Shown here piece after piece: positions 39,060-40,698 of a stretch of 64,000 nucleotides of DNA (positions are counted from its first letter, which is position 1; each line of letters opens with the position of its first letter). Where the stretch lies: assembly GCA_002633315.1 (NCBI GenBank), contig NWBN01000031.1:62001-126000 (forward strand), read 5' to 3'. A model generated the notes under the pieces. It searched no databases, was not told the origin of the DNA, and saw nothing but the letters and a program-made list of their open reading frames with translations. Position numbers and translations under genes: made by a program. The DNA comes from Bacteroidales bacterium Phil6 (GTDB lineage: Bacteria; Bacteroidota; Bacteroidia; Bacteroidales; F082).

Positions 39060-39260
39060 TTTGTTGAATTTCTGCTGTCATACAGATTTTATAATTTTTA
39101 AGTTTTGAATATTAATGAAATTTTTGATTCATTGAAACAAAAATTGTAGGAGTTTTTCGATTTATAACATTGTAAATACAGTCAATGATATTGATATAAT
39201 GGTATAATATATTGACGATCATATTGATATGGTTTGATGAGATAAATTTTTAAAATATGC

Positions 39261-39288
39261 TTGCTTTTATAAAAAGTTTGTATATTTG
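39261..39288 (+). promoter_or_regulatory. Promoter of metK
   Basis: TATATTTG at 39281-39288 matches the -7 element, and TTGC at 39261-39264 sits at -33 spacing. Transcription should start near 39294, directly before the SAM-II-like element. Confidence 0.7.
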
Positions 39289-39295
39289 CAACGCG

Positions 39296-39348
39296 AAAGT
39301 GGAAAGATTTGATTGATTGCAACCACAAGAAAAAATGCTAAAACAATG
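39296..39348 (+). promoter_or_regulatory. metK: SAM-II-like riboswitch in the metK leader
   Basis: The element has the order of the SAM-II aptamer. P1 is GTGG (39299-39302) pairing with CCAC (39323-39326). The loop reads GATTTGATTGATTGCAA, close to the GAUUUAACCGUAUUGCAA of the well-studied metX SAM-II RNA. After P1 comes an A-rich linker and the conserved GCTAAAA (39337-39343). CAAT (39344-39347) can pair with ATTG in the loop to form the H-type pseudoknot. A run of six T follows at once, so the switch could act on transcription or on translation. It lies between the metK promoter and the ATG at 39412, where SAM feedback makes sense. P1 is short and no covariance search was possible. Confidence 0.72.
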
Positions 39349-39411
39349 TTTTTTCCTCTATGAACAATCTCAAGTTTTCCCTAATATATGTTAAATCAAA
39401 ACAAATTTATT

Positions 39412-40698
39412 ATGGGTTATTATTTTACATCGGAATCTGTTTCAGAAGGTCATCCTGATAAGGTTTGTGACCAGATATCCGATGCTATTTTAGATGAAAT
39501 GTTGCGCAGGGACCCGGATGCCAAAGTGGCATGTGAGACAATGGTCACTACAGGCCTTGCTGTTGTTGCAGGTGAGGTCAGATACAATGGCAATGTGGAT
39601 ATTCAGGAGACGGTACGTCGTGTGATAGAGCGTATAGGATATACTAAAGCTGAATATCAATTTGACAGTAAGTCATGCGGAGTGTTGTCTGCCATACATG
39701 GACAGTCACAGGATATCAACAGAGGTGTGGTGCGCGACTGTGAAGAGGAACAGGGTGCAGGCGATCAGGGTATCATGTTCGGTTATGCTTCGAATGAGAC
39801 AAATGACTATATGCCGTTGACTATCAAATTGGCTCATAGACTTTTGCAAGAACTCGCTGCCATACGTCGCGAAGGTAAGGTGATGAAATATCTTCGTCCT
39901 GATGCCAAATCACAGGTTACTGTGGAATACGATGAGAACTGGAAGCCTGTACGTATAGATACTATCGTAATATCCACACAACATGACGAGTTTAGCGAAG
40001 ATGACGAGATGATGATACAGATTATTAAGGAGGATATCTGTAATATATTGATCCCGAGAGTTAAAGCCAAGTTGCAGAAGGAGATATGCTGTCTTTTTAA
40101 AGATGATATGAAACTCTTTGTCAATCCTACAGGCAAGTTCGTTATCGGTGGTCCTCATGGTGATACGGGAGTGACCGGAAGAAAGATTATAGTAGATACA
40201 TACGGCGGTCGTGGTGCTCATGGCGGTGGTGCATTTTCAGGTAAGGATTCCTCGAAAGTGGACCGTTCGGCAGCATACGCTGCACGTTATGTCGCAAAAA
40301 ATCTTGTCGCTGCCGGCGTGTGCGATGAGGTGTTGGTACAAATTGCTTATGCCATTGGTATAGCCCAACCTGTAGGTTTTTATGTCAATACTTATAATAC
40401 TTGTCATGTAAAAGACAATGATGGCAATGTGATTTCTGATGCTTTGTTGGCGGAACGTATAAAAGAATTATTCGATTTCAGACCATACGCCATTGTACGT
40501 CGATTCGGCTTGAAAAATCCTGTCTTTGAGGCTACTGCTTCATACGGTCATTTTGGTCATGAGCCTTATACTAAAAAGGTGGAGGTGTTTTATGAAGATG
40601 ATACTACTTATAAGGAAAACGGCAGGATATACAAAGATGTGGATTTCTTTTCATGGGAGAGACTGGATATGGTGGATGATATTAAAAAGTTGTTCTGA
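39412..40698 (+). CDS. metK: S-adenosylmethionine synthetase
   Basis: MetK makes SAM from methionine and ATP in the cytoplasm. The 428-residue protein has [18 protein letters not shown] near the N-terminus, the ATP motif [12 protein letters not shown], and the P-loop-like [15 protein letters not shown]. It is longer than the 384-residue E. coli enzyme, as in other Bacteroidales. I chose ATG 39412 ([15 protein letters not shown]) over the in-frame ATG at 39388, which would lie in the leader and adds an unconserved eight residues. A SAM-II-like riboswitch precedes it and a perfect terminator follows. Confidence 0.96.

Follow-up and report, generated by a model that had tools for sequence, protein, structure and literature searches.

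The window (the whole 64,000-nucleotide stretch of DNA analysed here) contains metK, the gene for methionine adenosyltransferase, preceded by a leader whose upstream neighbour is a gldA-type ABC ATPase gene. Judging from the nucleotide sequence, a SAM-II aptamer lies in this leader with near certainty. The metK frame is also open from an earlier ATG at 39388.

39281..39288, + strand: presumed -7 promoter box TATATTTG, TAnnTTTG type (from the sequence)
39293..39351, + strand: SAM-II aptamer, RF01726 (67.8 bits, above the gathering score of 44)
39299..39326, + strand: P1 stem, GTGG 39299-39302 with CCAC 39323-39326 (pairs in 128 of 128 leaders)
39312..39347, + strand: pseudoknot P2b, ATTG 39312-39315 with CAAT 39344-39347 (second position covaries between T-A and C-G, Fisher p 2.5e-9)
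39412..40698, + strand: metK, methionine adenosyltransferase (TIGR01034, 516.9 bits, E 3e-155)

The SAM-II aptamer and its relatives

A cmscan search of Rfam matched RF01726 (SAM-II) over the full model (positions 1-60) at 39293-39351 of the forward strand. With 67.8 bits and an E value of 6.2e-11, computed for the 64-kb window, a chance match is excluded, and a genome-wide search with the model returned one match in the organism's own genome, namely this copy in the metK leader. The loop segments GATTTG (39306-39311) and ATTGCAA (39316-39322) and the conserved TGCTAAA (39336-39342) can be read directly, and a single G separates the pseudoknot strand CAAT from a run of six T (39349-39354). According to the model alignment, the aptamer departs from the capital-letter consensus at two places, a loop C to U and a G to A after GCUAAA, which compensate each other within the pseudoknot. 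Regarding the promoter, we take TAnnTTTG to be the Bacteroides-type -7 box, and hence TATATTTG at 39281-39288 to be a promoter box; of 128 related leaders, 114 have the motif ahead of the aptamer, whereas shuffling single nucleotides gives a mean of 9.75. The position of this box suggests that transcription likely starts at the first bases of the aptamer.

For comparison, 178 loci were read, which are the best-scoring or listed RF01726 matches and not a random draw. The core pattern missed 15 loci, so that the set favours canonical cores; 163 were kept, and 128 remained after near-identical platforms had been dropped. The loop-duplex and swap tests used 127 of these leaders (L176, with a 4-nt spacer, being left out), the composition and allele tests 125 (L103 and L174, which lack metK, also being left out) and the start-codon tests 104, with spacers of 50-110 nt. 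P1 pairs in every one of the 128 leaders, seven of which have a changed but still paired stem. In leaders with 17-nt loops, the second position of the pseudoknot is mostly T-A (48) or C-G (26), compared with T-G in 13 and C-A in 4; another 12 loci have C or T as the partner. Pairing at the four counted pseudoknot positions is weaker in divergent groups, and leaders with GGCTG loops have CTGC at these positions in 7 of 21 cases. Six leaders with GGCTGCTTG loops (L085, L090, L101, L107, L113 and L115) have ACTGCG after GCUAAA, giving a mismatch at one counted pseudoknot position; the spacer of GGCTG-loop leaders is longer (median 115 nt), and L085 and L090 contain a GC-rich, hairpin-like stretch. 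The GGCTGCTTG-loop leaders perhaps use another platform.

The leader of the window thus combines a score above the cut-off, covariation of P1 and the pseudoknot, and a methionine/SAM gene downstream, as expected of SAM-II. The original prediction had placed a SAM-II-like riboswitch at 39296..39348, between a promoter and metK, and had described its P1, loop, GCTAAAA core and ATTG/CAAT pseudoknot. This description is borne out: all of these parts can be read in the sequence, the presumed promoter box lies upstream and the metK ATG at 39412 downstream, and the covariance model, TIGR01034 and the covariation among relatives agree with it.

The gene downstream of the aptamer is metK in 126 of the 128 related leaders. 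In L103 (G233:C269, 121-179), an RF01726 match of 66.6 bits stands, without metK, before a methionine-synthase-like frame, which was named by eye. In L174 (G055:C90:1-1500), no metK follows the SAM-II copy at 43-79, and a second, partial copy at 694-753 runs into ABC-ATPase sequence; the same contig also bears a normal metK copy (L175), and the arrangement is either a rearrangement or an assembly artefact. In L176 (G092:C1:382260-383060), the aptamer lies only 4 nt ahead of the metK ATG and the pseudoknot strand is unpaired. This locus has the lowest full-length RF01726 score of the genus among the matches listed (50.2 bits), and platform and pseudoknot seem to have been lost together.

Distribution and known relatives of the element

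RF01726 was detected in 84 of 99 genomes at genus level, in 99 of 108 at family level, in 216 of 295 at order level and in 45 of 296 at phylum level, the searches overlapping in genomes. In addition, ten metK loci from titled records were scanned, six of which carry RF01726 (L282-L285, L287 and L289); they come from uncultured Bacteroidia and Bacteroidales, Porphyromonas circumdentaria and an uncultured bacterium, and judging from isolate names they include rumen (RUG) isolates. At the other four of the ten (L286, L288 from Prevotella sp., L290 and L302), RF01726 was not found at metK. SAM-II elements from other orders of the class (L209, L212, L215, L217-L219, L222 and L227) have long inserts, either between P1 and GCUAAA or, in L227, within the loop.

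SAM-II had been reported from the Bacteroides group already in 2005 (Corbino 2005, PMC1273637), and for RF01726 the distribution is given as 'Bacteroidetes, marine' (Weinberg 2010, PMC2864571). The aptamer is therefore a further representative of a common family already described from this group; the remark in the original prediction that SAM-II was described mainly from alphaproteobacteria is corrected by these reports, and the frequency in the order makes the element ordinary here. The long-loop SAM-II of the 2010 report is like the window leader in its full-length match, core, P1, pseudoknot, metK context and occurrence in Bacteroidetes. The two aptamers do not differ, and main-text passages of that report do not cover the expression platform.

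Alphaproteobacterial SAM-II (the metA element, RF00521, PMC1273637; metA and metZ of S. meliloti, PMC9373788) shares the aptamer class, the gene pathway and a promoter just before P1. Those leaders, as described in these sources, have either intrinsic terminators or a pseudoknot that contains a Shine-Dalgarno sequence, whereas neither was found in the window leader, which instead has a C-rich platform and a predicted anti-aptamer strand covarying with the loop. Terminators are reported to be frequent behind alpha- and betaproteobacterial SAM-II (PMC1273637, PMC2258182), unlike in the Bacteroidales leaders. The new part looks to be the expression platform, in which a conserved alternative fold, not a classical terminator, would hide or free a C-rich strand. 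The literature search, which covered mainly openly accessible papers, returned no study of a Bacteroidota SAM-II platform and no Rho-dependent SAM-II.

A probable competing fold and a C-rich platform

Downstream of and overlapping the aptamer, three further features were delineated.

39304..39378, + strand: predicted competing anti-aptamer helix, 39304-39312 with 39370-39378 and 39315-39319 with 39365-39369 (minimum-energy fold; loop-swap z -8.5, n=127)
39329..39355, + strand: predicted second competing helix, GAAAAAAT 39329-39336 with GTTTTTTC 39348-39355, which includes the six T (minimum-energy fold; linker-swap z -4.7, n=127)
39352..39381, + strand: C-rich, G-poor expression platform, rut-like (C 0.30, G 0.07)

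The minimum-energy fold of the window leader, computed by a method that cannot represent pseudoknots, is a long hairpin and not the aptamer. Since the competing helix occupies the loop strand of the pseudoknot, it excludes the SAM-bound fold. In the window alone, significance was reached neither by the leader fold (z -0.59 against shuffles), nor by the duplex between the loop and downstream sequence (p 0.20), nor by the pairing between loop and platform (0.83 vs 0.43, sd 0.26). The support for the competing fold comes from the comparison of relatives. Across 127 leaders, the loop-downstream duplex has a mean z of -1.34 against dinucleotide shuffles and is individually at p<=0.05 in 32. In the swap test, the fit of each platform to its own loop was compared with its fit to other loop alleles (23 in all): the own loop is 1.25 kcal/mol better than expected (z -8.5, reached in 0 of 10000 permutations, which remove shared ancestry only partly). 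A strict set of 29 dissimilar platforms gives z -3.6 (1 of 10000), and the second helix likewise prefers its own linker over swapped ones.

The loop alleles and their exact complements point in the same direction. CAATC is present in 52 of 62 leaders with GATTG loops vs 15 of 63 others, CAGTC in 6 of 13 with GACTG loops vs 6 of 112, and CTACTC in 2 of 2 with GAGTAG loops vs 1 of 123. CAGCC was found in 0 of 21 leaders of the GGCTG-loop lineage, and for several rare loop alleles no exact complement was found among the 125 leaders. Ensemble pairing between loop and platform averages 0.644 in native leaders and 0.404 with shuffled platforms, the native value being higher in 111 of 125. Of the six leaders from titled records, five show more loop pairing than their mononucleotide shuffles and L287 shows none; the two-strand duplexes of these leaders range from weak to moderate in strength (-2.3 to -8.4 kcal/mol). 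Loop complements were also seen by eye in some putative Flavobacteria-type leaders, whose order name is a guess. On this comparative evidence, the competing anti-aptamer fold is quite probably part of the Bacteroidales switch.

Regarding composition, positions 10-39 after GCUAAA have a mean C of 0.305 and G of 0.102 in 125 leaders, and C exceeds G in 98% of them, compared with C 0.121 and G 0.148 in 123 leaders of the own genome (ORFs of >=150 aa in 464 kb). A cut-off of C>=.26 and G<=.10, which was set after looking at the data, is passed by 61 of 125 SAM-II platforms, by none of the relatives' 23 TPP and 30 cobalamin loci, and by 3 of 123 own-genome leaders at the fixed place (8 of 123, including metK, with the best of nine placements). 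C-richness as a general trait of leaders or riboswitches is rejected by its absence from these own-genome, TPP and cobalamin sets. It is also not a by-product of the complementary strand, as the platform outside the paired stretch is nearly as C-rich (C 0.294, G 0.084). Three of the six titled-record leaders pass the cut-off, and the GGCTG lineage is C-rich (0.322), yet less G-poor (0.183). As a separate observation, TPP riboswitches of the genus (L229, L230, L234 and L242-L246) are followed directly by recurring short leaders of the CCCCTTCACATTTATTA or TCCTCTATTGATTTA type near the ATG, which is a conserved platform of another kind.

Possible outputs of the switch

Rho typically loads on RNA that is rich in C, poor in G and has little structure. 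In the TPP riboswitch of E. coli thiC, ligand binding governs whether such a site is accessible and sets off Rho action (PMC5234074). The thiC leader and the metK leader share a C-rich, G-poor platform strand and an alternative lock fold, without an intrinsic terminator; they differ in aptamer and ligand, and the Rho action shown for thiC would be an extrapolation for metK. In the window, the platform strand has the thiC-type composition; partial cover of this strand by the competing fold, through which the ligand would control access, is supported in relatives and is not significant in the window alone. A Rho with an RNA-binding domain is encoded in the genome. Rho is named as the effector only tentatively, at somewhat below even chances.

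Binding of SAM and the off direction are carried over from the family, and the order of events below is a proposal. The riboswitch would switch metK off at high SAM. The RNA would begin at or just ahead of the aptamer, and if SAM were bound while the leader is synthesized, P1 and the pseudoknot would close and keep the loop strand busy. The C-rich, G-poor strand downstream would then be single and could serve as a landing site for Rho, which would stop transcription ahead of or early within metK. When SAM is scarce, the loop strand (39304-39319) would form pairs with 39365-39378, and the six U would pair with the A-tract; the resulting anti-aptamer fold would open the pseudoknot and cover much of the C-rich strand, so that metK would be transcribed. 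The whole chain, including Rho, is the single best guess, though one that we would put slightly under an even bet. It is weakened by the GGCTG leaders, which are without the complement and less G-poor, as well as by L287, which is without loop pairing, and by the fact that only half of the separately found leaders pass the composition cut-off.

Shine-Dalgarno sequences are seldom used in Bacteroidota. A translational switch, ranked next after Rho and rather unlikely, would use the same competition of folds, with the freed platform or the pseudoknot hindering ribosome loading by pairing with the start codon or at a standby site, without a Shine-Dalgarno sequence. SAM-II is a textbook direct-occlusion riboswitch (PMC10907184), and translation of S. 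meliloti metA is reported to be controlled at a distance (PMC9373788). Accessibility of the region -15..+12 falls slightly below that obtained with shuffled platforms (mean z -0.36, se 0.11, n=104), and the metK ATG is paired with 39379-39386 in the window fold. However, accessibility of -2..+6 with the platform free, as with SAM bound, is 0.410 compared with 0.412 for shuffled platforms (n=104), and it rises to 0.473 when the platform is sequestered, as without SAM, a gain of 0.063 vs 0.049 in the shuffled controls. In the window the corresponding values are 0.342 and 0.350, and pairing between the platform and the start region is at z -0.17 (se 0.13). Start-codon occlusion as the main route is therefore rejected, the modelling showing little beyond one measure with a small effect. 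Direct occlusion of the metX type does not fit the leader either, as the 3' strand consists of CAAT followed by GTTTTTTCC, without a ribosome-binding site, and the metK ATG lies 64 nt beyond the pseudoknot.

A switch in RNA stability, in which the two folds would differ in nuclease exposure and SAM would act via the half-life of the mRNA, is improbable. SAM-dependent stabilisation of mRNA has been reported for the SAM-II elements of S. meliloti metA and metZ (PMC9373788), but a stabilising SAM-bound form would oppose an off switch, and nothing in the data indicates a nuclease site.

Intrinsic termination at the six T, in which the original prediction saw a hint of action on transcription, is hardly credible. 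The run does come after the pseudoknot, and terminators are common behind proteobacterial SAM-II, but the run has no GC hairpin before it, and a simple scan of 39060-39420 found no terminator-like hairpin. Of 128 leaders, 12 have six T in this position, and terminator-like sites occur about as often as chance predicts (3 of 127 leaders vs 2.2 expected). In the predicted competing fold, the T run pairs as the 3' arm of the second helix. The idea of action on transcription may hold nevertheless, though through Rho and not through the six T. A leader peptide from the ATG at 39346-39348 in the pseudoknot strand was also considered and is regarded as chance, since only 16 of 128 leaders have an ATG in the same or an adjacent position.

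Returning to the Rho reading, SAM-II in Bacteroidales, and perhaps in other Bacteroidota, may be a two-state switch in which an anti-aptamer strand coevolving with the loop hides a rut-like strand that SAM hands to Rho, in place of direct occlusion; in this general form the proposal is advanced more cautiously still than for the window. The Rho of B. thetaiotaomicron has a long disordered region, and its condensation raises termination activity (PMC13269538). The covarying competing fold provides a concrete two-state model for SAM-II in Bacteroidota, and the C-rich strand offers a direct way to test whether Rho controls a leader in Bacteroidota. If true, SAM-II would here have a platform that depends on Rho, and the leader would be a natural target of Rho regulation in a phylum in which Rho has such a disordered region.
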